DNA from: a virus
Length of the DNA: 33,875 nt
Reading direction: 5' to 3' (one strand)
IMG/VR virus record: IMGVR_UViG_3300050133_000054
Location: 1 to 33,875 of that record
The notes under the pieces were generated by a model, which did no database searches, was not told the DNA's origin, and saw only the letters and a list, made by a program, of their open reading frames with translations. Positions 3,013 through 22,546 of the stretch are shown here, in pieces (positions within the stretch are counted from its first letter, which is position 1; the number at the start of each line of letters is the position of its first letter). Both the position numbers and the translations under genes were made by a program.

Positions 3013-3030
3013 AAAATTCCCCTTTCAATG

Positions 3031-3074
3031 TTTCGCCTTTTTCTCATAAGCCATTTTGTGACATTTATTTACAA
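3031..3074. repeat. 44-bp intergenic junction repeat, copy 1
   Basis: Matches 4099-4142 at 39 of 44 positions by direct reading, including the shared core CATTTTGTGACAT. On the minus strand it covers the end of one gene (TGTAAATAAATGTCA) and the leader of the next. A shorter third version, GACATTTATTTACAA, is at 3274-3288. Confidence 0.75.
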
Positions 3075-3223
3075 GTAGTTATTAAGTAACTTAATAAATT
3101 TGCCCTAAACTTACGCATCTCGTCACTTTCTCCAACACAAGTAATATCTAGTAATTTAATTAATCTACGTGCTTCTCTTTCTTGAAGTTCTATTTTAATT
3201 GTTTTATCAATTCTCACTTCCAT
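3065..3223 (-). CDS. Small 52-aa hypothetical protein
   Basis: The start is the ATG at 3223, because GGGAGGT lies 4-5 nt upstream; a longer frame starting at 3295 has no such site and would overlap the end of the neighbouring gene. The protein begins MEVRIDKTIKIELQEREA, is strongly charged and probably helical. The last codons lie inside the 44-bp junction repeat. Function unknown. Confidence 0.6.
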   Translation of the reverse strand: MEVRIDKTIKIELQEREARRLIKLLDITCVGESDEMRKFRANLLSYLITTCK

Positions 3224-3278
3224 AGTTACCTCCCATATTTTTACATCTAAATTGTTTTTGTAATCCCTACCATGACAT

Positions 3279-3536
3279 TTATTTACAATTATCATATATA
3301 TTGCAATCAGTACATTGTTTTGTAACTCCTAATTTGCACTTACTACAAGCTAATTTATATTCCTTTTCTTCTTTTTCTAATTTAATTGCTTCTGAATCAG
3401 TTTCTATACTGGCTTTAGTTTCGTATGCTTTATCATCAGCTATACTGTCTATAAGCATTGTTATAGCTATTATTTTAAATCTTCGTGAAAGTCCGAATAA
3501 TTCTTTTACTTTATAATCTAATATTTGCTTTTCCAT
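3279..3536 (-). CDS. Small protein with C-terminal four-cysteine zinc-finger-like motif
   Basis: An 85-aa protein with AAGGAGGAG just before its ATG. The first 45 residues are helical and charged. The C-terminus has CSKCKLG...CTDCNIYDNC, two CxxC-type knuckles that probably bind zinc. Such small knuckle proteins in phages are usually nucleic-acid or protein adaptors. Its stop lies in a copy of the junction sequence TGTAAATAAATGTCA. The zinc-binding reading is inferred from the cysteines alone. Confidence 0.6.
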   Translation of the reverse strand: MEKQILDYKVKELFGLSRRFKIIAITMLIDSIADDKAYETKASIETDSEAIKLEKEEKEYKLACSKCKLGVTKQCTDCNIYDNCK

Positions 3537-3773: not shown

Positions 3774-3832
3774 ACTTTCTCCTTTCTATTGGTAAATATT
3801 TACATTAGTATTATTTTTGTAAGCCGAACTAA

Positions 3833-4078
3833 CTACTTTAAATACTCAATTATTCTTTTGATGCTTTCAACTCTATAAGGCAAACAATTATCCTCCCAAT
3901 TTGTACGATATTCTTTTTCTAATTCACTCATTGTTTTAGTTAAATACATTATTGCTATAGCCATATCACTATGGTCATAGGTTTTATCATTTTTATGAAT
4001 TTGTATATAAATTTCTTGAACTACTACACCACCTATAACAAAACCAATAAACCAACATAAAATATATATCCAATACAT
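3833..4078 (-). CDS. Small membrane-anchored protein
   Basis: An 81-aa protein with AAAGGAGA before the ATG. Residues 3-22 (YWIYILCWFIGFVIGGVVVQ) form one transmembrane helix at the extreme N-terminus; the remaining 55 residues are charged and helical and would face the cytoplasm or the outside. Small anchored proteins in phage accessory regions often act in superinfection exclusion, but nothing here proves it. Confidence 0.6.
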   Translation of the reverse strand: MYWIYILCWFIGFVIGGVVVQEIYIQIHKNDKTYDHSDMAIAIMYLTKTMSELEKEYRTNWEDNCLPYRVESIKRIIEYLK

Positions 4079-4098
4079 AACATTTTCTCCTTTACTTG

Positions 4099-4142
4099 TT
4101 TCGCCTTATCTTCATAAGACATTTTGTGACATATATTTACAA
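4099..4142. repeat. 44-bp intergenic junction repeat, copy 2
   Basis: Second copy of the sequence at 3031-3074, again placed between two genes in the same orientation. It separates the radical SAM gene from the membrane-anchored gene. Confidence 0.75.
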
Positions 4143-4145
4143 TTA

Positions 4146-5123
4146 TTACGCAACTAATTTGATATTTTCTTTATAAATTCTTAAACTCTCGCTGATACGC
4201 TCATTATTGATATGTCTTTTATATAAAAATGTTTCAAAATCTATCTTTTTAAAGAAACTAGGTTGGTTACAGTAAGCTGCGTAGTCAATGTAAAAGTTTT
4301 TATTAATACTATCCCAACAATTAATATCTCGCATTACATAGGGTAAGCAGTGATTACTACGACACCATTCAACTCTTTCTATTAGCTGTGATATTTCCAT
4401 ATCTTTATTTTGATAAACATAAAATTTTAATTGCCAATCTTTCTGGATATACATTTTAATAATTTTCAATTTTGCTTCAAGTAATGGCTTGTATTTAATA
4501 TCATCAAACGCAAATATATAATTACCATCATAATTTAACTGTGATAAAAGACTTGCATTTTTATTATTTATTAATCTAAAATCTAAGCCTTGATTGAAGT
4601 CACACCTTATATTCCTATCTATCAAGTATTGGAATACTTCACAATGTTTACTATATGCAAGAATATTATTATCAAAGAATTTAACTTTTTTATGTTTTAT
4701 GATTGACTCTACTGTATTATAAAATTTCAACTTACCTTCAAACTTTGGAACCTTACAAAAATAACAATTCCTTATGCAACCTCTTGTAATAAAACCGTAA
4801 CTTGTATCTTCATCCTCATAATAAAAAGGATCTGTTTTTTCTATTGCTTCAGATAACTTTATATCTGGATTTTTGGAACCAATACCGGCAATTATTACAT
4901 CATCACAATTTATTACTCTGTACTTTTCCTTATTTACATCAAAAATGTTACTGACATAAACTCGATCGTAATCACTACCATCAATTACCTTATATTTTTT
5001 ACTCGGATAACCTTTGAATTTTAAATCTATCATAGAAACATCATTTTCATTTTTATAGAAGTTATATATTCTACGGATAGCAATATTAAACTTTGAGTCT
5101 ACATTTACTAATAACATTTTCAT
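4146..5123 (-). CDS. Radical SAM protein
   Basis: A 325-aa protein with the radical SAM [4Fe-4S] signature CxxxCxxC at C116-C120-C123 (RGCIRNCYFCKVPKFEG). About 110 residues precede it, recalling the reduced cobalamin-binding-like domain in front of many B12-type or MiaB-like radical SAM enzymes, but no clear B12 motif (DxHxxG) is visible. The enzyme would cleave SAM to a 5'-deoxyadenosyl radical; its substrate is unknown. It sits between two DNA methyltransferases, so modification of nucleic acid or a nucleotide is a reasonable idea, as is anti-defence; both are inference. AGGGGG precedes the ATG at 5123; an adjacent in-frame TTG at 5126 is less likely. Confidence 0.8.
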   Translation of the reverse strand: MKMLLVNVDSKFNIAIRRIYNFYKNENDVSMIDLKFKGYPSKKYKVIDGSDYDRVYVSNIFDVNKEKYRVINCDDVIIAGIGSKNPDIKLSEAIEKTDPFYYEDEDTSYGFITRGCIRNCYFCKVPKFEGKLKFYNTVESIIKHKKVKFFDNNILAYSKHCEVFQYLIDRNIRCDFNQGLDFRLINNKNASLLSQLNYDGNYIFAFDDIKYKPLLEAKLKIIKMYIQKDWQLKFYVYQNKDMEISQLIERVEWCRSNHCLPYVMRDINCWDSINKNFYIDYAAYCNQPSFFKKIDFETFLYKRHINNERISESLRIYKENIKLVA

Positions 5124-5214
5124 CAAATTTCCCCCTATTTAATATTTTAATGGTAAATATTTACATTCGTATTTTAGTCAAAAGCCGACCTAACTTACAT
5201 TTATTCTAAATTAA

Positions 5215-7214: not shown

Positions 7215-9797
7215 CTAAAATTCTGTGTTACTTTGTGTAACACGGGTAACACCTGAGATTGTCGTCTCTTTGTCGCTCATATCGATAACAATATAGCGGC
7301 TGACTTTACCCTCAAATCTCTTTACAACTGTATATTTCATGCGGCCATCTGTTTCAATCTTTGTCTCGCATTTGCCACGGTCCGCAAATCCTCTCATTGT
7401 TTTTTTATAAGAATAACCAGCGTCCTCGAGGGCCTTCTGCATTATTTGAGGGAATATATAATATATTTCGGATTCAACTGATCCAAACCTCGGAGCGTGA
7501 GCGTCTATCGAAAATTGACTACTATTAGAATGTAACCAACCCGTTACAAATTCAAAGGCTCTCTCAACCACGTCCGCCTCTTCAGTACCCTCTAATTTAT
7601 CTAATATCTCGGCGCCCATATCATAAGACTCAGCCGGATCACTCTTGAATATCCACTTTGAAATTAACATATCGGCTATTGTAACAAGTGAGACGGCTGA
7701 AACATGAGATCCCAGTTTGTCAGGAAACTGCGTTTGAAACTTTTCTTGCAATGTTTTATGACTCTTTCTGAGGGGCTCGTAATCTTTTCCGAAAGTATCA
7801 ACTAATTTATTGATAAACTCAGCCCCCGCGGTCCCGAAGTAACTCGTCGAGATATCGTGCATATTTCGGGCGCCCTCTTCAGCGTCAAAGGGTGAGCCAC
7901 ATATCTCGATTGCCCTCGTTGCGACGCCTGTTTGACTTGAGAGCGTCGTGAGCGGCTCTTCTCCGGTAGTTAATGCAATTGTGCGCCAGCTCTTACTTGC
8001 TTGAACACCGCCGGCCTTAGCCCCTCGTAATTTACTTGTACCGTTACTTATCATATATACTAAATTGTCGATAAAATCCTGTTTACCTGAAGCGACTTGA
8101 CGCTCATCAATTCCGAGGGGTAAGTCATTAAAAAATCCAGCTATCCGCTCGAGACCGACTTTTGTTGCATTGAATGAAGTCATTAATTCGTCAGGATCGC
8201 CCCAAACTGAGAGAGCTGCTTTGAGTGCTGCTGTCTTTCCGCCTCTACTATCGCCCCAGTTATGAACGAAAAACGTTCTATGTTTAAGTGGCTTGAGTAG
8301 TGGAGCTGCAAAACTGGCCGCGAGTATAAATCTAAATGTATAATTATTTCGGTAAGGCTGAATTTTCTCGGTCCACTGTGCCATGGTACCGCATGCCCTG
8401 TAAGCATTTACCCACTTTTGAGCGCTGCGGTCCACGTCAACGACGATTTTGCCGGGACGCGTTGGCATGAAGTTGTTAGAATACCAACCGAGTTGACTTA
8501 CTGTCTTTTTAATAGGCATAATTTCAATATTTTCGGCTTCAAGTGCTCCTAAAAATGAAACTATCCCCCGAGCGTTCTCGCTTGTAACTGTGACGCCCAT
8601 ATCTGCGAGCATTGTTATTGTCCGAGATTGAAATATAATTGATCTTTGGACCGATATTGTCTGCCACTTCTTATCTCTGAAAAATGCAACTTCCATCTTT
8701 TCGTCTTCAAAGTCTAAGGATTTCATTCTTGAAGTCAACAAAATAGGCGTTCGACAAACCTGAGCCAAAATTCCAGTTTTATCATCGACTTTATAAATTC
8801 CACTTTCATTTATTCTAAATCCGATAGGTGATCTTAATTGTATTGGAGCACCTGGGATAAGCTCTTCGACTTGTACTGCCATAGATTTCAAATCTATCGG
8901 TTGAGCTGCTTCAAATACTGCGTTCCACTTATCCTCGAAATCACTCGCATATTTTATATGTAAGTCTGACGGATCCTTAACGCCTTGAGTCTTACAACTA
9001 AGGGTATAAACTTCGCCCACAAATTTCTCGGAATAAAGGCCATCACATATTTTTTTAATAAAATTCTCGGAACCTGAGGGAGAGTCGGGTGTTTCCGGCT
9101 TTCTCAAGTCCCGCTCATCATGTATATAAATTGTTAATCCTTGAAGTTGCTCGGTCCATGACGCCTGAAATGTAGTGGCCCCCGGTACACCCAGTGCAGG
9201 AATGCCGTATAATGTCAGTGTTTGATTGTCACTCTCGCCCTCGACTAAAATACAATATCCCTTTTTCTTAATTGCTGGGAGCTGCTGAAGGCCATATAAT
9301 GACATTTTTGATCCTTTGGACCACCTGAATATTTTATTTATATATCGGAGGCGAGTTGCTGTGATTTCGCCCTCTGAATTTAAGTAAGGCATTGAAATAC
9401 CGAGTCTAACATTTCTTAATTTCCAGTTATTTTTTAAATAATCTATAGGAAAATGTTTTGCGGCTGCGTACTCTTCAAGTGTGTAAGATTTTAAAGTCTT
9501 TTCAACCTTCTTTATTACAGGTTCATCATATTCCCCGGCCAGCTTCAAAAGTTTTTTATATGCCGTCGAGCCGTCTATATTCTCAATCTCTTGGAGAAAA
9601 ACTTGTCCATTTCCTGATTTTCCGCATGTCTCACATTTAAAAAGTCCCTTCTCGGTATTAAACCAAAAACTCGCGTGTTTGTCGTTATGGAATGGGCACG
9701 GGCCGACCATTTTGTCGGAGCCCGTCTTCTTTAATCCCTTAATATATCCGCCGTAAAATTGCGGCCAGTTTATTTTATTGTCAATCTCTTTAAACAT
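7215..9797 (-). CDS. Primase-helicase: CHC2 zinc finger, TOPRIM and DUF927-like ATPase
   Basis: An 860-aa replication protein. The zinc-binding site is C34-PF-H37...C55-ET-C58 (CHC2 type). A TOPRIM fold follows with VEGESD near residues 185-190 and the acidic IHDERD near 226-230. The C-terminal half is a DUF927-type ring ATPase with Walker A GDSRGGKT at 515-522 and an acidic LGIDERQ segment as likely Walker B. Together these make primers and unwind DNA at the phage fork. The start ATG has AAGGTGA upstream and overlaps the preceding nuclease gene by 8 bp. The last codons coincide with the GTTAC repeat array. The family call is firm. Confidence 0.9.
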   Translation of the reverse strand: MFKEIDNKINWPQFYGGYIKGLKKTGSDKMVGPCPFHNDKHASFWFNTEKGLFKCETCGKSGNGQVFLQEIENIDGSTAYKKLLKLAGEYDEPVIKKVEKTLKSYTLEEYAAAKHFPIDYLKNNWKLRNVRLGISMPYLNSEGEITATRLRYINKIFRWSKGSKMSLYGLQQLPAIKKKGYCILVEGESDNQTLTLYGIPALGVPGATTFQASWTEQLQGLTIYIHDERDLRKPETPDSPSGSENFIKKICDGLYSEKFVGEVYTLSCKTQGVKDPSDLHIKYASDFEDKWNAVFEAAQPIDLKSMAVQVEELIPGAPIQLRSPIGFRINESGIYKVDDKTGILAQVCRTPILLTSRMKSLDFEDEKMEVAFFRDKKWQTISVQRSIIFQSRTITMLADMGVTVTSENARGIVSFLGALEAENIEIMPIKKTVSQLGWYSNNFMPTRPGKIVVDVDRSAQKWVNAYRACGTMAQWTEKIQPYRNNYTFRFILAASFAAPLLKPLKHRTFFVHNWGDSRGGKTAALKAALSVWGDPDELMTSFNATKVGLERIAGFFNDLPLGIDERQVASGKQDFIDNLVYMISNGTSKLRGAKAGGVQASKSWRTIALTTGEEPLTTLSSQTGVATRAIEICGSPFDAEEGARNMHDISTSYFGTAGAEFINKLVDTFGKDYEPLRKSHKTLQEKFQTQFPDKLGSHVSAVSLVTIADMLISKWIFKSDPAESYDMGAEILDKLEGTEEADVVERAFEFVTGWLHSNSSQFSIDAHAPRFGSVESEIYYIFPQIMQKALEDAGYSYKKTMRGFADRGKCETKIETDGRMKYTVVKRFEGKVSRYIVIDMSDKETTISGVTRVTQSNTEF

Positions 9798-16007: not shown

Positions 16008-16235
16008 TTATAGCGCTTTTAGTAGAGTCCGAAATGCAAAGCCGCTCGTCGCTAACTTTCCGATTACGCCTGTGATTGGATATGCTGCTTCAATTACTAT
16101 CATACCGCTTGTAGCTGCTAAGAGCCCCACTGTAACCATGCAAACGAGCTCGGCACCCATTAGTAACACTTCATTATTTCCGCCCTCTACGCTTGCGAGA
16201 GCGAGCCCTGCTTGACTAAATTCATAACTTTTCAT
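16008..16235 (-). CDS. Small membrane protein with two hydrophobic segments
   Basis: A 75-aa protein, AAGGGGG before the ATG. After a polar N-terminus, two hydrophobic stretches (about 23-48, rich in V, A, G, and 53-74, PITGVIGKLATSGFAFRTLL) are joined by a short turn. The small size, glycine and alanine content and hairpin layout recall VirB2/TrbC-type pilins and phage coat or channel proteins, but there is no signal peptidase site I can read. It is the last gene of the transglycosylase operon. Family not identified. Confidence 0.6.
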   Translation of the reverse strand: MKSYEFSQAGLALASVEGGNNEVLLMGAELVCMVTVGLLAATSGMIVIEAAYPITGVIGKLATSGFAFRTLLKAL

Positions 16236-16236
16236 T

Positions 16237-16881
16237 TTATAATCCCCCTTTTACTATTGGCCCGAAGTGAGCTATATGCTTAATCATGTTATTAGTGTAT
16301 TCGTATATATGATTCCGGCTTGCGAACCGAGGCAGCGCCTCGACGCCTGCATTCCAAGCGTTCCAAACTTTCCGAGGATTGTCTGGGAATAAAGTGTGTA
16401 AATGTTCCAAGTAGCGCCCCGTGATTTCGGTTAAATAATTACGATCATTTTTCAGAAGTTCAATCGTCGGCTCCTGAAGTATAATTCCTTTGGCCTTGAG
16501 TATTGCGTGAGCTGCCTTCGCAGTGCCGAGTCTCATTTGACTCGCTCCATAGCTCATTATTCCGTCGGCCTCGAGCCTGCTTGCGTGTCCGAGTGAATTT
16601 TCATTAAACATTAGAGATACGAGTTCGCCCTTTTGGAGGTGACATTTCTCTTCTATATCTATTACATACTGGATCCACTTGAGATCGGTACATTTGCTTG
16701 GATCCGCGATTTGGTGGAGCGCTGCGTCCGAAGTTACTGCAATACAATTTTCAGGAAACATCTTTTCTACCAACGTCGCGCCCCAGTGGATAACCTCTTC
16801 GTTATTTATTACTAAAACTGTTACTACGATAACGACTACCACGCCGCAGACGATGATCTTAACGAGTTTACGTTTATTCAT
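16237..16881 (-). CDS. Membrane-anchored lytic transglycosylase (SLT fold)
   Basis: A 214-aa protein: transmembrane anchor at residues 6-25, then an outside SLT-type domain. The catalytic glutamate is E94 in MFNENSLG (equivalent to ES-x-x-GNP), followed by GIMSYGASQMRLGTAKAA (the GLMQxxPxTA motif) and WNAWNAGVEALPRF (the AYNAG motif). It would open peptidoglycan locally, as VirB1-type enzymes do for secretion and conjugation machines or phage P7-type proteins for DNA entry. It is separate from the lysis genes 7 kb away, so it is unlikely to be the endolysin. The ATG at 16881 follows GGAGG by 10 nt and overlaps the stop of the preceding gene (TAATG); a longer frame to 17031 is rejected. Confidence 0.82.
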   Translation of the reverse strand: MNKRKLVKIIVCGVVVVIVVTVLVINNEEVIHWGATLVEKMFPENCIAVTSDAALHQIADPSKCTDLKWIQYVIDIEEKCHLQKGELVSLMFNENSLGHASRLEADGIMSYGASQMRLGTAKAAHAILKAKGIILQEPTIELLKNDRNYLTEITGRYLEHLHTLFPDNPRKVWNAWNAGVEALPRFASRNHIYEYTNNMIKHIAHFGPIVKGGL

Positions 16882-17075
16882 TAGATTAGTACCTCCGTAA
16901 TGTTTGGAAGCGCTGCGTCGTCCATGAGCGATAGATTGAGACCTGAGATAAAATTCCCCTGGACCGAAGCCCAGCTCTTGAAAATATCTTTTGCGATTTG
17001 GATCGTTGGTGCCTGGAAAGTGTAAGAACATATATATAAATTACTTTTACAGTAACTAATTTCAAATTTATTCAT
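16881..17075 (-). CDS. 64-aa soluble protein, first gene of the transglycosylase operon
   Basis: AAGGAGA precedes the ATG. The product begins MNKFEISYCKSNLYICSYTF, has no clear membrane segment and has a mixed alpha/beta look. Translationally coupled to the transglycosylase (TAATG overlap). Unknown family. Confidence 0.6.
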   Translation of the reverse strand: MNKFEISYCKSNLYICSYTFQAPTIQIAKDIFKSWASVQGNFISGLNLSLMDDAALPNITEVLI

Positions 17076-17110
17076 TTTAATATCTCCTTATAAAATATTA
17101 TCTATACGGT

Positions 17111-17150
17111 ATAATATGACTTTATACTGCATAGTGTTACTACAACTTAG
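17111..17150 (-). promoter_or_regulatory. Promoter with CTAAGTTGTAGTAACAC element, copy 1
   Basis: On the minus strand TAACAC (17134-17139), 17-bp spacer and TATTAT (17111-17116). The -35 is part of a 17-bp sequence, CTAAGTTGTAGTAACAC, that is identical at 21483-21499 before the ATPase operon. The poor -35 plus conserved upstream bases suggest an activator or repressor site. Confidence 0.6.
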
Positions 17151-17151
17151 A

Positions 17152-17180
17152 TAATAAAAAATAAGGCCCCGGAGGGCCTT
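17152..17180 (-). terminator. Terminator after the small membrane-protein operon
   Basis: Stem AAGGCCC/GGGCCTT (17163-17180) with CGGA loop and a T-rich tail on the minus strand. It ends the operon 18448-17184 and directly abuts the next promoter. Confidence 0.8.
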
Positions 17181-17183
17181 GAG

Positions 17184-17330
17184 TTATTTGTTTAACATTT
17201 TATTTGCTTTTTTATCTTTTGCGATTTGTATAATTTCTTTAACATTTTTAATTGAACCTTTGATTCCCATACTAATAAATATTATTATTGCGACATCGGC
17301 TGCAAGTAGTGCTATATCATAAACCCCCAT
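17184..17330 (-). CDS. 48-aa single-pass membrane protein
   Basis: GGGAGG lies 8 nt before the ATG. Residues 5-24 (DIALLAADVAIIIFISMGI) form a transmembrane helix; the rest is a basic cytoplasmic tail rich in lysine. Size and layout resemble filamentous-phage coat or small scaffold proteins. Not recognised. Confidence 0.6.
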   Translation of the reverse strand: MGVYDIALLAADVAIIIFISMGIKGSIKNVKEIIQIAKDKKANKMLNK

Positions 17331-17368
17331 TGAGTCCACCTCCCTCTTAATTGCTGCCCTTGAGCCCT

Positions 17369-17452
17369 TTATAACCCTGCTGAGTTAATTTTCTCTATTA
17401 CTAACGTACTTATTGATACGATCGCCATAATGATTATATATTTCATTTCCAT
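17369..17452 (-). CDS. 25-27-aa hydrophobic peptide
   Basis: AGGAGG is followed by two in-frame ATGs (17452, spacing 2; 17446, spacing 8, preferred). The peptide (MKYIIIMAIVSISTLVIEK...) is one transmembrane helix. The strong ribosome binding site makes translation plausible despite the small size. Confidence 0.45.
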   Translation of the reverse strand: MEMKYIIIMAIVSISTLVIEKINSAGL

Positions 17453-17458
17453 AGCCTC

Positions 17459-17674
17459 CTATGCGATTATTAAATTTGCAACTGAGCCGAGGCCCTTACT
17501 AACTAAAAACATGATCGCGATTTCTTTCCCCAGGAACCCGAGGCCCACCATGCCGATTATTACTGCAACGCTTATCACGTCGTTAACTTTTGACTCTTTC
17601 TTTTTTTTGATATCGAAATCCATTTGAACACGTCCGAGATTGCTCATTGGATAAACTTTTTCTTTTTTAAACAT
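17459..17674 (-). CDS. 71-aa small membrane protein
   Basis: AAGGGGG lies 8 nt before the ATG. The first 30 residues are strongly charged (KKKKESK), followed by hydrophobic segments at about 32-49 and 51-70 (VISVAVIIGMVGLGFLGKEI and onward). It sits third in the operon after the two SpoIIIAC/AD-like genes. It could be another channel subunit. No family recognised. Confidence 0.6.
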   Translation of the reverse strand: MFKKEKVYPMSNLGRVQMDFDIKKKKESKVNDVISVAVIIGMVGLGFLGKEIAIMFLVSKGLGSVANLIIA

Positions 17675-17687
17675 TTAATTTGCCCCC

Positions 17688-18011
17688 TTATTTATTTTCT
17701 AATAAATATCTTACAAAGTCAGCACCGCCGCCGACCATCTTACCAACTGCGCCGCCCAAGAACTGAGTCGCCTTTGTTGGATCTCCTTGAAATCCTGAGT
17801 GCTTCATTGCTGCAAGTAGATTAACAACCTGGGCCACTGTTAAGACCATACCACCGAGCCCGACCATATCCGCAATTTCTTTGTTGCCACCTGATTTTAA
17901 AATTAACTTGTAACACATAGTTACTACGAAGGTGATTCCGATTGAAGCGTAATAAGTTTTGTATGCGTTGATGTGAGCCAACGCTATCGCATATAATACG
18001 ACGGTTCCCAT
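17688..18011 (-). CDS. SpoIIIAC/AD-like membrane protein, larger paralogue
   Basis: A 107-aa protein. Residues about 20-70 (SIGITFVVTMCYKLILKSGG, then NKEIADMVGLGGMVLTVAQV) have the two-helix hairpin with a short GNKE turn seen in SpoIIIAC/AD proteins, and they align by eye with the 63-aa protein just upstream. The C-terminal 35 residues are soluble and glycine-rich. SpoIIIAC and SpoIIIAD are ring or channel components of the SpoIIIA-SpoIIQ apparatus joining mother cell and forespore. It starts 2 bp after the upstream stop, so the genes are coupled. The resemblance is by pattern only. Confidence 0.5.
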   Translation of the reverse strand: MGTVVLYAIALAHINAYKTYYASIGITFVVTMCYKLILKSGGNKEIADMVGLGGMVLTVAQVVNLLAAMKHSGFQGDPTKATQFLGGAVGKMVGGGADFVRYLLENK

Positions 18012-18013
18012 AA

Positions 18014-18205
18014 TTAATTACCTAAAGTCCTTACGGCTTTGAATACATTTATTGCCGCAACTACTACCGTACAAGCGAGTATCGAAGTTGTTACCATTGA
18101 GACCATGCCAGCCTCTTCTATCTTTCCAAGTTTTCCGAGTACCTTTTCAATTATTACGCCGCCGACTGCTGTTGTTCCCATTACGACTAAAGTTGTTAAA
18201 TTCAT
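18014..18205 (-). CDS. SpoIIIAC-like small membrane protein
   Basis: A 63-aa protein with AAGGGGG upstream. Two hydrophobic segments flank the charged turn LGKLGKIEEAGMV, closely like the MGKKEYAQWV turn of SpoIIIAC (68 aa); length and helix spacing also fit. In spore formers SpoIIIAC is part of the SpoIIIA secretion complex, but there is no spoIIIA ATPase or spoIIIAE gene here. So it may be an independent two-helix channel protein with a similar fold. Confidence in membrane hairpin is high, in the SpoIIIAC relation moderate. Confidence 0.5.
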   Translation of the reverse strand: MNLTTLVVMGTTAVGGVIIEKVLGKLGKIEEAGMVSMVTTSILACTVVVAAINVFKAVRTLGN

Positions 18206-18228
18206 TTTAATATTCCCCCTTAATTAGA

Positions 18229-18296
18229 GGCCTCTTTGTAATACAAAACCATCGGCGTTGAGCTTTGCATTACAAAGAGTTTAACCTCTTTGTAAT
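18229..18296. repeat. Three-copy repeat able to form alternative hairpins
   Basis: CTCTTTGTAAT occurs at 18231-18241 and 18286-18296, with its complement ATTACAAAGAG at 18270-18280. The middle copy can pair with either flank (stem of 11 bp, loop of 5-6 or about 28 nt). On the minus strand this lies in the leader of the SpoIIIAC-like operon; on the plus strand the right-hand hairpin is followed by TTTTTT and reads as a terminator. A two-state RNA switch is possible. Confidence 0.6.
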
Positions 18297-18448
18297 TTTT
18301 TGGTTAGAAACTTGTCGAGTTTAAACATTAATACAGTTAAAATTTTAAAATATTTTACGACTGGCTTACTACCTTTTTTATAAGACCTTGAAACTTTTCT
18401 CGGGTTCAGTAATTTTTTAAATATTAGTAAACTAAATAATGTATTCAT
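18281..18448 (-). CDS. 55-aa very basic protein
   Basis: AAAGGA lies 9 nt before the ATG. The protein begins MNTLFSLLIFKKLLNPRKVS and is rich in lysine and arginine throughout, so it probably binds nucleic acid or acidic lipid. Its last codons overlap the inverted repeat. It is the first gene of the membrane operon; family unknown. Confidence 0.5.
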   Translation of the reverse strand: MNTLFSLLIFKKLLNPRKVSRSYKKGSKPVVKYFKILTVLMFKLDKFLTKKLQRG

Positions 18449-19066
18449 ATGATCACGTCCTTTAAGTTTATTTTATCCGTAGTATTTAAAGTGTAATAAC
18501 TCATGTTAAAATCTTAGATATTACATACATAATTTGTAGTAACATTAACAAATTCTAAATATTAAATATATCAATCAACTAAGAGCCAAACTCTATCTTA
18601 TAATAATTTCAGAATATCTCTGAAAGATTTCGACATTATCCAAAATTGAAACCATGCTGTATGAGAGCTGCTCCAATTTCGGATTATGCCTCCACCTCTC
18701 AGGGCTATACCGGATTATCATAAAATACAATTTAACGTTAGTTAATCATAAGATAACATTTATCATTCGTTATTGTTACGGCTATTATATACATTATGTC
18801 CAAGTGTTTACATATGCTTTACATATCAATATCACGATATGTAGGGGGGACCGGATGATACTTTCGTGACTTATATCTCCGGCTTAGCCAGCCTGTCAGG
18901 CTTATCCCGTCACTCGCGGCTATTATCGCCGCTCATTACTCCTTTTACACTTTGTTTATAATCAATCTATTGCTCAAATATCATATTGTATGAGTGTATA
19001 TCTGTATGTGTAGTATTCCATTGGCTTATACTTATATACTATGAAGCAGCTCCGAAAGTGTTACTC
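18449..19066. other. 618-bp noncoding region with strong hairpins
   Basis: No ORF with a ribosome binding site is seen on either strand. At 18851-18932 are three hairpins: CCGGA-t-GATA/TATC-TCCGG (18851-18882), AGCCT/AGGCT (18890-18902) and GCGGC/GCCGC (18916-18932). GTGAC in the loop of the first (18866-18870) can pair with GTCAC (18909-18913). A longer stem TGAGAG/CTCTCA encloses 18662-18701. It could be a regulatory RNA, a transfer origin or a replication element. Confidence 0.5.
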
Positions 19067-19705
19067 TTATATAAAGAGCTGCATTATATTACTTAGGTTA
19101 AAATCTAACTGGATCATATTAACGTCGGGAGCTATGTCCAAAGTGTCCTTATGCTTAATATCATCAATTATTACTAATCTCGGGAATAGTTCGCCTTTTC
19201 CGCCTTTTTGGCCTGTAATTTCATTTACAATTTGGTGGCTGAGATCGTGAGCCTCATGGCTTTCGTAGATTTCCTTATATTTTTTAACCTCGATTTGCTT
19301 AGTTCTGACGACTTCTAAAAGATCGAAATAAACCTTTTGTCCAATACTATAAACACAATATCCATCGGAATAATACTTTTTATTGAGCCACTGCTGCTCA
19401 CGTTTGAAATATTTTATTGTCGCGCCTGCCTTCAGAAGTGCCGTGTAATAATCCATGATTAAAATAGTGTGATAGCTGGGCTTTTTATCAATATAATATA
19501 CGTTTCGGTTGAATGCCTCGTCTCTGAAACAATTCAATCGCTCATAGTTTACCAATTTTTTACAATGCCGTCTAGCCATCTCGTAGCCGCCCTTCTGGCG
19601 ATTGTAGTACATGTTTTGCGCTTGTGTAATCGTGATCGAGCCAAATGATTCTACATATAAGAGGATTTCGCGATCCTCGTCGGTCAAATACATTCTTTGT
19701 AACAT
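19067..19705 (-). CDS. Replication-relaxation family protein
   Basis: A 212-aa protein whose N-terminus (YLTDEDREILLYVESFGSIT, ITQAQNMYYN) is the winged helix of the replication-relaxation family, encoded on Gram-positive plasmids and conjugative elements, often beside an FtsK-type ATPase as here. The remaining part is mixed and holds a basic stretch suited to DNA binding. GAGGAG lies 8 nt before the ATG. It is the last gene of the ATPase operon. Family probable; molecular role not well known. Confidence 0.7.
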   Translation of the reverse strand: MLQRMYLTDEDREILLYVESFGSITITQAQNMYYNRQKGGYEMARRHCKKLVNYERLNCFRDEAFNRNVYYIDKKPSYHTILIMDYYTALLKAGATIKYFKREQQWLNKKYYSDGYCVYSIGQKVYFDLLEVVRTKQIEVKKYKEIYESHEAHDLSHQIVNEITGQKGGKGELFPRLVIIDDIKHKDTLDIAPDVNMIQLDFNLSNIMQLFI

Positions 19706-19724
19706 TTATAAGACTCCTCAATTT

Positions 19725-21236
19725 TTATTTTTTGGGTGGTACATACGGCACCCAGTCGGATTTTTCCATACTTTTTTTTAACATATCGTCTCGCGTTTTC
19801 AGTAATTTATAATTAATCTCAGGCGCAGGGGCTACCTTCACGGGCTTTTTATCTTTTATAGGTAGTATTATTGTGCCTGAGTCTTTAATCTCTTTCGGAG
19901 GCTCTGAGGGCGTGCCCTTTTTTAATATTGTGGCCTCTACGAGTTTAATTTCTTGCGGCTCGGATTTCCTTAGATCCGAAAATAATGTTCTATGATTGAA
20001 TTTAATACTCGGAGCGATCAACTTCTTAACCCCGGTCGACATATTGGGCGTATACATGAAACCATCCGTCTCATTATCCGAGTAGAACGCCCGCCAGTGA
20101 GGCAGCTTGAAAGCATTTTTTGCTAAACCCGGGCCGAGTACAATTTCCGCACAAACGAGATCGTCGAATCCGAAACATATTCTCACGCTTGCCATATTTT
20201 TCAGGAAACTCGGCATTAAAACCGCCGAAGGCTTTTGATGAAGTGGCATATAATTGACGCCCATCGAACCGCCAATTTGTCCAATTAGTCGAATATGCTT
20301 CATAATCTTATTTTTTATTTTTTTTGTGTCAGGATCATCGACTCCACTTTCATACATTAACTCGATAAACTCATCAATTACAACGATTATATATGGTAGT
20401 TTATTGCTTGCGTGCTGCTTGTTATAATGCGCGATATTGTCGTTTCCGTCGGCCTGAACTACCATCGGACCGAATAAATTTGTACGGCGCTTCATTTCTT
20501 TGTCTAAGTGCTCGAGAGCTCTTAGAATACTTTCAAGCGTGGCAGCGTAGCAATAGACTTGTTTACAATTTTTATACTTTTCGAGATCATTCTTTGCGCC
20601 TTGCAACATATAAAACATAATTTCCGTTTCGTCACATGAGGCGATCCATGAGGCGATCGCGTGGTCCGCAGCCCCATTTTTGCCCCTCCTTTGCTGGCCG
20701 GCGATTAAAATATGAGGCGTATCATTTAGATTAAATATGATCGGCTCGCCGTCTATTGAGTAGCCCGGGCAGAATTCCCACGGCTTAACTTTGACAGCTA
20801 CGAGCGGCCAGCTATTAATCTTTACTTGATTTGGATAAATAAATTTCACTTTTGCAAATTGGTTATGAGCTGGAATTTTATATAAAAACTTACATTTGCA
20901 GCCCGTCTCAATCATAGGGCTCCTTTTGTCTAAATCATTGAGATCCATCCCCCAGGGCGCGTATACTTTCGCACTCAGGCCGTAATCATGAACCTTGACG
21001 TCTTCAAGTGTAAAACCATTTTTCTCTCTGTTAAAGTCTTTAAGATTTCCGAAGGTATTCATCCAATTACTAACGAGAGTATTTATTTCAGAGCGATTCC
21101 TTTTATTTACGGCCGTTTCAACTTTTTTGAGTTCAAGCGCGGAGGCCTTGTCTATAGTTCTTCTATTTTTTACGCGCTTGATTTCGTCTTTTGTGAGCGG
21201 CTTACTCTTTTTTAGAATACTTTTGAGTGTAAACAT
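19725..21236 (-). CDS. FtsK/SpoIIIE-type DNA translocase with altered Walker A
   Basis: A 503-aa ATPase. The P-loop is G180-QQRR-G185-K186-N187: Asn replaces the usual Ser/Thr that binds magnesium. The Walker B segment IIVVIDEFIELMYE is intact, and later motifs (LIGQIGG, MPLHQKP, FLKNMASVRICFGF) fit FtsK/TcpA-like motors. There is no FtsK-gamma domain and no obvious N-terminal transmembrane region; a 59-aa membrane protein is encoded just upstream and could be its anchor. FtsK-type motors drive dsDNA transfer (TraB), coupling in Tcp conjugation, chromosome pumping, or packaging in membrane-bearing phages. AGGAGG lies 7 nt before the ATG. Activity is uncertain because of N187. Confidence 0.82.
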   Translation of the reverse strand: MFTLKSILKKSKPLTKDEIKRVKNRRTIDKASALELKKVETAVNKRNRSEINTLVSNWMNTFGNLKDFNREKNGFTLEDVKVHDYGLSAKVYAPWGMDLNDLDKRSPMIETGCKCKFLYKIPAHNQFAKVKFIYPNQVKINSWPLVAVKVKPWEFCPGYSIDGEPIIFNLNDTPHILIAGQQRRGKNGAADHAIASWIASCDETEIMFYMLQGAKNDLEKYKNCKQVYCYAATLESILRALEHLDKEMKRRTNLFGPMVVQADGNDNIAHYNKQHASNKLPYIIVVIDEFIELMYESGVDDPDTKKIKNKIMKHIRLIGQIGGSMGVNYMPLHQKPSAVLMPSFLKNMASVRICFGFDDLVCAEIVLGPGLAKNAFKLPHWRAFYSDNETDGFMYTPNMSTGVKKLIAPSIKFNHRTLFSDLRKSEPQEIKLVEATILKKGTPSEPPKEIKDSGTIILPIKDKKPVKVAPAPEINYKLLKTRDDMLKKSMEKSDWVPYVPPKK

Positions 21237-21247
21237 GAATTAACCTC

Positions 21248-21427
21248 CTAAATAATACTTTTCGACTGTTTGCTGAGCGCCTCGTCTATCTGTTTATATC
21301 TAACTTCAAATTTTGAATAATTGTAATACTTTATTTTTTTAGACTTGCCTGACTTATTATATTTGATACGGACGATTCCGATTATAAGTCCTGCGCCGAC
21401 TGGGATTAGAGCGATTAATATTTCCAT
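21248..21427 (-). CDS. 59-aa single-pass membrane protein, possible ATPase partner
   Basis: The start is the ATG at 21427, with GGAG 8 nt upstream; a longer frame to 21550 would run through a promoter and a terminator and is rejected. Residues 2-20 (EILIALIPVGAGLIIGIV) are a membrane helix; the tail is basic (KSGKSKKIKYYN). It lies 12 bp before the FtsK-type gene, so a membrane anchor for that motor is a sensible guess. Confidence 0.6.
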   Translation of the reverse strand: MEILIALIPVGAGLIIGIVRIKYNKSGKSKKIKYYNYSKFEVRYKQIDEALSKQSKSII

Positions 21428-21459
21428 TTTTGCAGCTCCAAATATATTGGTTATACGAT

Positions 21460-21499
21460 ATACTATGTAAGTATAAGATAATGTGTTACTACAACTTAG
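21460..21499 (-). promoter_or_regulatory. Promoter with CTAAGTTGTAGTAACAC element, copy 2
   Basis: TAACAC (21483-21488), 17-bp spacer and TAGTAT (21460-21465) on the minus strand, with the 17-bp element at 21483-21499 identical to that at 17134-17150. As at copy 1, a terminator abuts it upstream. It should drive the membrane protein, ATPase and replication-relaxation genes. Confidence 0.6.
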
Positions 21500-21501
21500 A
21501 A

Positions 21502-21526
21502 AATAAAAAAAGAGCCGCAGCTCTTT
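21502..21526 (-). terminator. Terminator of the parMR operon
   Basis: Stem AAAGAGC/GCTCTTT (21509-21526) with a four-base loop and T run on the minus strand. The stem includes part of the parR stop codon. Confidence 0.8.
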
Positions 21527-21695
21527 AAATATCGAGCTGAAACTCTTCACTGTTAACCTTTGTGACCGGCTTTTTATTAATCATTTTCTCCCTGATTAAT
21601 TGTTTGATATAATAACTTGCTGAGATCTGATCCTCTAAAAAATCAAACATTTCTCTTTCGGATTCTTTAAAACTGATATTAACTTTTATAGCCAT
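21525..21695 (-). CDS. parR: ParR-like ribbon-helix-helix partition adaptor
   Basis: A 56-aa protein. Its start MAIKVNISFKESEREMFDFL is a beta strand then helix, and SASYYIKQLIREKMINKK gives the second helix and basic end, as in small ribbon-helix-helix DNA-binding proteins. It follows parM with a 10-bp overlap, the position of ParR, which binds centromere repeats and caps ParM filaments. GGGGGTG lies just before the ATG. Recognised from position and fold; no close homologue is remembered. Confidence 0.65.
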   Translation of the reverse strand: MAIKVNISFKESEREMFDFLEDQISASYYIKQLIREKMINKKPVTKVNSEEFQLDI

Positions 21696-22546
21696 AACTT
21701 CACCCCCATTTCGCCAAATCCGAGAGCGTTAGCAAATATTGTATCATCAATTAATTCAGCATTCGGAATCCTCTTTTTGAAGGCCCTGACGAGTAGCTGG
21801 GCCCCGCCTCCGATAAGTTTAACTTTTAGAGTCTTAATGCTATAACTGATTTTTAACTCGCTTACGATTGTTTCCACGTAGCTCTTGAAGACGTCCATCG
21901 CGAAATCAATATTTTGTGGCTCTCCATATATCTCGAGGCCCCCTTGTAATATGCGGATCGCGTCGTCGGTCCTGAGATCAAGCCCGTATTTACTATTGAT
22001 TAATTTTATGAAATCCGCGTATAAATTGAGTGTCCCGACTGGCAGTGAGTACGGCTTCATAACTTTGTGCCCCTCAATGACAGCCGCGTCGGTCGTCCTC
22101 CCTCCGATATCACAAATTACACCATTGAAACTCGATCCGATAAGTGCTGCCACGCCTTCGGGGTATACCGAGACGTCTTCGATTATTATTTTACGATCCG
22201 CGCCGCTCATATTTATATCGTGCACTCTATCCGATAAAAGTATATCTTTTAGGGCCGCTTTGTCCTGAGTATATTGTGATAGTGGCAGACCGACTACTAC
22301 TTTGTTATTAACTGACGCGGAACTGAGCGCCACGGCTGCGATGAACATTTCTTTTAGATATTTCTTTTTAATTTTGCGATATTCCCCGTCAAATTCGCCC
22401 TCTCCGAGATAAAAAGTGCCTTCAGAAGTTGTCAAAACTTTTGTATTGGATATCAAATTCCCCTCTTTTGATACTTTGGAGAGAAAATTCACTCTTTCTG
22501 ATGTTTTTACGCTATAATTACCTAAATCAATCCCAGTAATTGCCAT
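21686..22546 (-). CDS. parM: ParM/StbA-like actin-type partition ATPase
   Basis: A 286-aa actin-fold protein: phosphate-1 motif GIDLGNYSVKTS (5-16), phosphate-2 motif CDIGGRTTDAAV (145-156) and adenosine motif LIGGGAQLL (264-272). ParM filaments push sister plasmids apart. It is short for the family (ParM of R1 is 320 aa) but has all nucleotide motifs. The operon promoter reads TTTACG-17-TAGTAT (22572-22600). Together with parR and a RepA_N origin this is strong evidence for a plasmid lifestyle. AAGGAG precedes the ATG. Confidence 0.88.
   Translation of the reverse strand: MAITGIDLGNYSVKTSERVNFLSKVSKEGNLISNTKVLTTSEGTFYLGEGEFDGEYRKIKKKYLKEMFIAAVALSSASVNNKVVVGLPLSQYTQDKAALKDILLSDRVHDINMSGADRKIIIEDVSVYPEGVAALIGSSFNGVICDIGGRTTDAAVIEGHKVMKPYSLPVGTLNLYADFIKLINSKYGLDLRTDDAIRILQGGLEIYGEPQNIDFAMDVFKSYVETIVSELKISYSIKTLKVKLIGGGAQLLVRAFKKRIPNAELIDDTIFANALGFGEMGVKLWL

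Follow-up and report, generated by a model that had tools for sequence, protein, structure and literature searches.

The DNA analysed here is the virus record IMGVR_UViG_3300050133_000054, whose whole stretch of 33,875 bases is referred to as the window. The locus in question is a module in which genes for an FtsK-type motor and a Replic_Relax-type (RR) protein stand before genes for small membrane proteins. The window has a G+C content of 36%, no end repeats were found, and its genes lie nearly throughout on the minus strand. Besides the FtsK/RR module they encode tape measure and tail proteins, lysis proteins, an actin-like ParM protein, repressors and replication proteins, with an HNH gene at the left end. 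Reading the genes of the window brought up neither a capsid nor a portal nor a terminase gene, and by this gene content the window looks like one piece of a larger temperate phage-plasmid. An Rfam search of the window and of the gap after the RR gene returned zero matches. All open reading frames (ORFs) named in an earlier note on this DNA were confirmed at the positions it gave, each of them on the minus strand. The core of the module is as follows (aa, amino acids).

21248-21427, minus: one-helix membrane protein, 59 aa, first gene of the FtsK operon; a homologue lies directly upstream of FtsK in related loci L017 (9945-10118), L065, L067 and L068
19725-21236, minus: FtsK/SpoIIIE-family motor, 503 aa (PF01580, E 1.8e-15; phrog_17074, 4e-91)
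19067-19705, minus: RR protein, 212 aa, which may nick DNA or serve the motor as a DNA adaptor (phrog_9996, 3e-42)
18820-18882, minus: window counterpart of an element resembling an origin of transfer (oriT), with a possible hairpin (18882-18851), TACATATC (18843-18836) and its inverted copy (18827-18820)
18281-18448, minus: 55-aa ORF, placed where relatives have a 90-99 aa membrane protein; assigned by position, homology putative
18014-18205, minus: two-helix SpoIIIAC homologue, 63 aa (phrog_6470, 6e-9; TIGR02848 at family level; hhalign E 3.7e-13)
17688-18011, minus: second SpoIIIAC-like protein, 107 aa, paralogue of the 63-aa protein (TIGR02848, 1e-4; hhalign E 5.1e-8)

The FtsK-RR pair and its relatives

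The module is real, conserved and under-described, and it is a variant of a known phage FtsK-Replic_Relax cluster. FtsK and RR form a recurrent pair in phages, phage-plasmids and plasmids of Bacillota. Annotated phage examples are PK5.2 of Geobacillus, Curly of Bacillus and one phage of Staphylococcus; the pair also occurs in a Bacillus plasmid that bears phage genes, a Clostridiaceae phage-plasmid, and Thermoanaerobacterium and Sarcina plasmids. The earlier note had called the set non-standard for siphoviruses; this does not hold, as FtsK and Replic_Relax genes are annotated in phages of Bacillus, Geobacillus and Staphylococcus (PMC9658697).

For the neighbourhood survey, 207 genomes of one family were searched and the loci were then read. 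The order small membrane protein (tm55), FtsK, RR, gap, membrane protein (tm90), 62-aa protein and 70-aa protein was conserved in L017 and L064-L068. The earlier note had staked its reading on gene order being kept outside this element, and these are six other loci that keep it. In these close relatives the gap measures about 400-560 bases, the membrane protein 90-99 aa and the SpoIIIAC-like protein 62-69 aa, followed by a second SpoIIIAC-like protein. The loci comprise a 146-kb virus contig (L017, also in IMG/VR) and prophage-like loci. Identity between the window and L017 was 56% for FtsK and 58-61% for RR, with further values of 44% and 42-43%. Direct scans of IMG/VR with FtsK and RR gave no close relatives, and an alignment of the FtsK-RR pair recovered one, the 146-kb contig. 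The phrog_17074 profile at E<=1e-40 gave no match among 398 genomes and was uninformative. More distant versions of the module carry other membrane proteins after RR.

Two kinds of neighbour were noted beside the pair. A gene for a DUF457-like (YdjM-type) membrane metal-hydrolase is often found next to FtsK-RR where the SpoIIIAC pair is missing (L018, L020, L069, L070, L081, L082 and L003). In plasmid pMU3262, FtsK-RR is followed at a distance of a few kb by Flp/Tad-like pilus genes, among them those for CpaB and a secretion ATPase (L003, 19073-25838).

The motor, which the earlier note had identified correctly, has a single FtsK_SpoIIIE domain. Hydropathy gave no membrane helix in the motors of the window, L017 and L064-L067, and two in TcpA of pCbo51. 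In the Sarcina plasmid (L002, 14839-16716) FtsK and RR are one ORF.

The assignment of RR as a replication-relaxation protein also stood. PF13814 (Replic_Relax) was matched by 13 of 25 aligned RR relatives (E<=0.1; best 1.2e-8), and by its sequence relatives RR probably belongs to the Replic_Relax / MOBC-relaxase family; PF13814 has been classed as MobC (PMC5357655). The RR profile matched PDB sequences only at E>0.3, with winged helices on top. Three positions, H79, D114 and E131, were invariant in all 26 diverse RR sequences, and position 142 was K in 22 and R in 4. An AlphaFold2 model built from three sequences (pLDDT 75.9, pTM 0.76) showed a winged helix followed by the order alpha-beta-beta-beta-alpha-beta, with D114 on strand 2, E131 on strand 3 and K142 on the next helix. 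The PDB neighbours of this model were mostly PD-(D/E)XK nucleases (XisH, EndoMS, Hjc, FokI, the nicking enzyme N.BspD6I and Can2), and those of its N-terminus were winged-helix regulators. Because the list of neighbours is consistent and the residues are invariant, rather than because of the structural score alone, the modelled RR looks like a nuclease with a winged helix and a PD-(D/E)XK fold. MOBC relaxases consist of a winged helix and a restriction-endonuclease domain and form no covalent intermediate, and the direct repeats to which TraX binds are set apart from nic (PMC12857230).

SpoIIIAC homologues and the lytic-transglycosylase-like operon

Taken singly, the 63-aa and 107-aa proteins of the window gave weak scores against SpoIIIAC. 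As families they were recognised clearly: TIGR02848 was matched by nine of nine members of the 63-aa family and by four of seven of the 107-aa family. Profile-profile comparison with chromosomal SpoIIIAC/AD of the relatives' hosts gave the hhalign values listed above, over 55 columns for the 63-aa family, and the two families are paralogous to each other (hhalign E 4e-8). The likeness to SpoIIIAC/AD noticed earlier is thus firm at the level of family profiles, and we regard both proteins as true SpoIIIAC homologues.

No other SpoIIIA subunit (AA, AB, AE-AH) was matched among the scanned module proteins of the window. In L020, beside a TubZ-like gene, one operon holds FtsK, RR, a SpoIIIAC-like gene (2.6e-12) and a SpoIIIAB gene at 8184-8696 (PF09548, 2.3e-31); L020 is the only module with SpoIIIAB. 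A chromosomal spoIIIA operon was found in six of seven hosts tested. One host genome, G913, carries a SpoIIIAC-type module, and SpoIIIAB, AC/AD and AE were undetected in its chromosome, in an assembly whose completeness is not known.

Modules of Bacilli phages have a VirB2/TrbC-like protein directly after RR (L085: PF18895, 1.2e-4, and PF04956, 3.4e-4; L087: 0.015), a Staphylococcus phage among them, and such a gene after RR has been published for phages Novomoskovsk and Bolokhovo (PMC9658697). Comparison of the SpoIIIAC-like and VirB2-like profiles, the latter with just two rows, found no homology; therefore the two kinds of protein share the slot by position only.

A one-helix micropeptide of 33 aa (YNDLMANALV / ENNLMANSIV) is common to the Thermoanaerobacterium plasmid (L003, 13798-13899) and the TubZ-bearing locus L020 (8711-8812), where it adjoins FtsK or SpoIIIAC/AB-like genes.

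The remaining genes and sites of the region are these (LT, lytic transglycosylase; RHH, ribbon-helix-helix).

21686-22546, minus: ParM/Alp actin-like segregation protein, 286 aa, a plasmid-partition neighbour of the module (PF17989, 1.7e-14; PF06723, 5.4e-9; PRTRC_D, 6e-16)
21525-21695, minus: small DNA-binding protein, 56 aa, RHH-like on reading; ParR-like or relaxosome-auxiliary-like (phrog_4223, 1e-9)
21428-21526, minus: terminator-like site (21526-21509), then the FtsK-operon upstream region, closely similar to 17076-17180, with the box GTTGTAGTAACAC at 21483-21495
17459-17674, minus: small membrane protein, 71 aa, without family match in Pfam/PHROGs scans
17184-17339, minus: small membrane protein, 51 aa, likewise without family match in these scans
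17076-17180, minus: terminator-like site (17180-17163) and LT-operon upstream region, a copy of the FtsK-operon upstream region, with GTTGTAGTAACAC at 17134-17146
16881-17075, minus: 64-aa ORF that opens the LT operon (ORF call)
16237-16884, minus: membrane-anchored LT-like protein, 215 aa, ATG at 16884 (SLT-like motifs on reading)
16008-16235, minus: two-helix membrane protein, 75 aa, last gene of the LT operon (ORF call, scans)

Similar small proteins, counterparts of the 56-aa protein, adjoin FtsK in L065, L079, L002 and L004. The terminator-like sites at 21526-21509, 17180-17163 and 15999-15986 divide the operons.

The protein taken in the earlier note for a lytic transglycosylase retains that assignment only at the level of its membrane helix and the SLT-like stretches NENSLG, YGASQM and NAWNAG seen on reading. 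It had no match in Pfam, PHROGs, NCBIfam, PDB, phages or plasmids, and its single-sequence model was poor (pLDDT 47). The single genome match, a glutamate-5-kinase-like chromosomal ORF, was set aside as chance. The gene is linked to the module through its upstream region. The stretches before the FtsK operon (21441-21510) and the LT operon (17092-17161) were 76% identical over 70 nucleotides (nt), and a terminator-like site precedes both operons. The box GTTGTAGTAACAC is exact at its two listed sites only, and an inverted copy with two mismatches (18533-18545) sits upstream of the operon of the 55-aa ORF and the SpoIIIAC-like genes, so that three matches stand against 0.44 expected. The shared upstream region and the boxes make it likely that the LT-like gene and the module are regulated together as one regulon. 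A scan for sigma-70 promoters was uninformative, the DNA being too AT-rich.

The gap after the RR gene

The earlier note had overlooked an element that was found in the gap after RR of the relatives. ACATAYCACAAAAG is present once in this gap in all six close relatives and nowhere else in those loci. It usually lies directly behind an inverted repeat whose arms differ by locus (GGGAGG/CCTCCC, TAAGGGG/CCCCTTA, GGAAGG/CCTTCC, GGAGC/GCTCC). The layout of the gap in relatives is thus an inverted repeat with variable arms, TACATA[CT]C and, often, two CAAAA[CG] boxes.

The following statistics were made post hoc, the motif having been seen first, on loci that are partly related and in some cases with mononucleotide shuffles, and they serve as guides only. 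Within 350 nt downstream of RR, TACATAYC was found in 12 of 27 loci, as compared with a mean of 0.63 and a maximum of 4 in dinucleotide shuffles. The shorter TACATAY occurred downstream of RR in 18 loci (4.8 in shuffles; reverse strand, 4). At 8 of the 14 testable sites an inverted repeat with perfect arms, 6 bp or longer, ended 0-4 nt before the site (null mean 0.48, maximum 2), and control TACATAY sites in the same loci had such a repeat in 37 of 311 cases (Fisher p 1e-4). Paired CAAAA[CG] boxes, 19-24 bp apart, followed the site in about half of 19 loci, against 0 of 306 control sites. In L073 and L076 the hairpin and site overlap the end of RR, and in L085 and L086 no hairpin-site was seen after RR.

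The bare 16-mer GTACATAYCACAAAAG had 19 matches in IMG/VR, just one of which adjoins FtsK-RR (L121, with the hairpin present); therefore the string alone is no marker. A terminator is less likely here, as a T-run is absent, the hairpin abuts TACATAYC and the arms vary; a promoter is less likely as well, given the hairpin directly abutting TACATAYC and its variable arms. The results suggest that the gap after RR has an oriT-like layout in relatives and holds a candidate target site.

In the window, the core TACATATC stands behind the possible hairpin and faces its own inverted copy. The region around it folded better than shuffles (z -2.5). ACATAYCACAAAAG at three mismatches was not found in the window above chance frequency.

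Candidate DNA-transfer role and alternatives

We favour, at about even probability, the view that the temperate phage-plasmid carries a DNA-transfer module of the mobilization type (TcpA/MOBC-like), in which a pump like FtsK/TcpA is combined with a homologue of MOBC relaxases and with SpoIIIAC-like membrane proteins. If this reading holds, some temperate phages would gain contact between cells as a second means of spread, and one could test where a part of the sporulation channel came from. Among the options raised in the earlier note, TraB-like transfer of double-stranded DNA comes nearest to this combination of motor, relaxase homologue and, in relatives, an oriT-like element. In a first step the winged helix of RR would bind DNA, probably at repeats beside the RR gene, and the PD-(D/E)XK domain may nick or cut the hairpin-adjacent TACATA[CT]C, for which fold, residues and site were computed. 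The FtsK-like hexamer, a motor by family, would then pump the DNA of the element while coupled to RR; coupling is proposed because the two are one protein in the Sarcina plasmid. The preceding 59-aa membrane protein may anchor FtsK at the membrane. In a third step the two-helix SpoIIIAC-like proteins, which by homology belong with SpoIIIAC, might form or gate a membrane passage, in the slot that is VirB2-like in Bacilli phages. A fourth step, specific to the window, would be opening of peptidoglycan by the LT-like protein, as its motifs suggest; its operon has an upstream region of the FtsK-operon type. Because VirB4 and VirB6 were not seen, the module would depend on a helper system or follow a minimal route like that of TraB.

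The module was compared with several known systems. The phage cluster of FtsK/SpoIIIE and Replic_Relax genes (with TrbC/VirB2 and RHH genes) is found in Bacillus, Geobacillus and Staphylococcus phages (Andromedavirus, Novomoskovsk/Bolokhovo, vB_GthS_PK5.2). It shares the order FtsK, RR, small membrane protein and a small DNA-binding neighbour (PMC9658697). Its small proteins are VirB2-like, whereas those of the window are SpoIIIAC-like, and the hairpin-TACATAYC gap of the clostridial relatives was not seen in L085/L086. MOBC relaxases (TraX of pAD1 and MobC of CloDF13; PF13814) share with RR the winged helix and PD-(D/E)XK-type fold, family-level PF13814 and, in relatives, repeats beside a putative site. 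They differ in having VirD4 instead of an FtsK-like partner and an ExK lysine where RR has one in a helix, and nicking by RR is putative. TcpA coupling proteins (pCW3, Tn916/ICEBs1 group) likewise have a single FtsK_SpoIIIE domain directly before a relaxase-type gene, and a search that used the window protein as query retrieved the pCbo51 tcp operon. In contrast to TcpA, the window motor has no N-terminal membrane helices, a separate membrane protein (59 aa) being encoded upstream, and TcpC-H genes are absent. Streptomyces TraB/Spd shares an FtsK-like motor, small membrane proteins and the absence of a type IV secretion core (PMC12857230).

Several points weigh against transfer. The window RR alone did not reach a match to PF13814, the structural Z scores of its model were moderate (<=7.8), and the usual PD-(D/E)XK lysine is absent at E131 +2, where K142 would have to replace it. 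Walker A of the motor reads GQQRRGKN, with N for the usual S/T, in both the window and L017 (10132-11658); Walker B is intact, and GK[ST] is retained in every other module member compared. The element of the window is the least canonical one, as it lacks both a long perfect repeat adjoining the site and the CAAAA[CG] boxes. In the modules of relatives the LT-like gene is without counterpart. None of the module proteins that were scanned matched VirB4 or VirB6, the ORFs of 64 and 55 aa and all other parts of the window being only read; the earlier note was right on this, and wrong in seeing no relaxase, as RR by its relatives falls in a MOBC-type family. MobC relaxases are reported to accompany VirD4 and never TcpA (PMC5357655), and FtsK and RR are also found in phages thought virulent, where conjugation makes little sense (PMC9658697).

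A stronger form is a self-contained DNA-transfer machine of clostridial phages and phage-plasmids, with SpoIIIAC homologues in the VirB2-like slot, an FtsK motor, a MOBC-like nickase and its own hairpin-TACATAYC origin. We consider this doubtful. If it were true, such phages could move between living cells by contact as well as in virions, and SpoIIIA subunits and a DNA-transfer channel would have a common ancestor.

Plasmid maintenance, a reading published for Andromeda-type Bacillus phages (PMC9658697), is possible though we hold it unlikely. According to it, the RHH protein, FtsK and RR would work inside the cell, together with ParM/TubZ, so that the circular prophage is replicated, resolved or segregated, with the membrane proteins as anchors of the complex. 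FtsK-RR indeed lies beside ParM-like genes in the window, L018, L070 and L082 and beside TubZ-like genes in L020 and L081, Replic_Relax and FtsK genes often neighbour plasmid segregation genes (PMC9658697), and RR with its hairpin-site could be an origin. However, the same module is found in large chromosomal contigs, where plasmid upkeep is needless, e.g. L068, which lies within a 3.9-Mb contig and adjoins a miaB-like gene. Two SpoIIIAC-like proteins, or VirB2-like ones, would also be unexpected.

A role in the infection cycle appears improbable. A membrane complex expressed between lysis and immunity genes might serve DNA entry, packaging, lysis timing or superinfection exclusion. The module does follow holin and endolysin genes in L066-L068 (holin- and amidase-like) and L085, it is carried by phages described as probably virulent (PMC9658697), and the authors on phage Pony suggested DNA injection for its SpoIIIE/FtsK protein (PMC3853050). 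Yet FtsK-RR is also present on the Sarcina plasmid and on pMU3262 of Thermoanaerobacterium, the latter with a SpoIIIAC-like gene too, in displayed regions without a full tail module, and the site with its hairpin points to DNA processing.

Slightly less probable again is forespore inheritance, another option of the earlier note, in which a SpoIIIE-like motor and SpoIIIAC/AB-like proteins would carry the phage-plasmid across to the forespore or maintain an open passage to it. The part of this option that stood is the homology: the small proteins are related to SpoIIIAC/AD of the SpoIIIA channel, SpoIIIAB accompanies SpoIIIAC in L020, and nearly all tested hosts have the spoIIIA operon. The window module lacks any other detected SpoIIIA member, and FtsK-RR modules of Staphylococcus and other Bacilli phages have a VirB2-like protein instead. 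Import into the forespore is less likely because one module host, G913, has no detectable spoIIIA operon, with the reservation on its assembly given above.

The last option of the earlier note, an assembly set left over from a tectivirus-like or filamentous-phage-like ancestor, would fit the small membrane proteins and an FtsK/HerA-superfamily ATPase but is hardly credible: SpoIIIAC homology, the RR neighbour and the conserved order match neither virus type, and no capsid or coat family was matched among the module proteins (Pfam, PHROGs).

The new points are the firm SpoIIIAC homology, the nuclease-type RR predicted by its model and the hairpin-TACATAYC element in relatives. They give a testable identity, with a candidate nuclease target, to FtsK-Replic_Relax genes that have been annotated in phages for years without a function. 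They also place homologues of SpoIIIAC, and once of SpoIIIAB, on mobile elements beside a DNA motor.

Outside the module, repeated sequences of 40-80 nt (of the TTTGTGACATTTATTTACAA type and others) lie upstream of several early genes of the window, at 3017-3096, 3252-3291 and 4085-4164 and also at 3784-3852 and 5145-5213, and suggest a second regulon.

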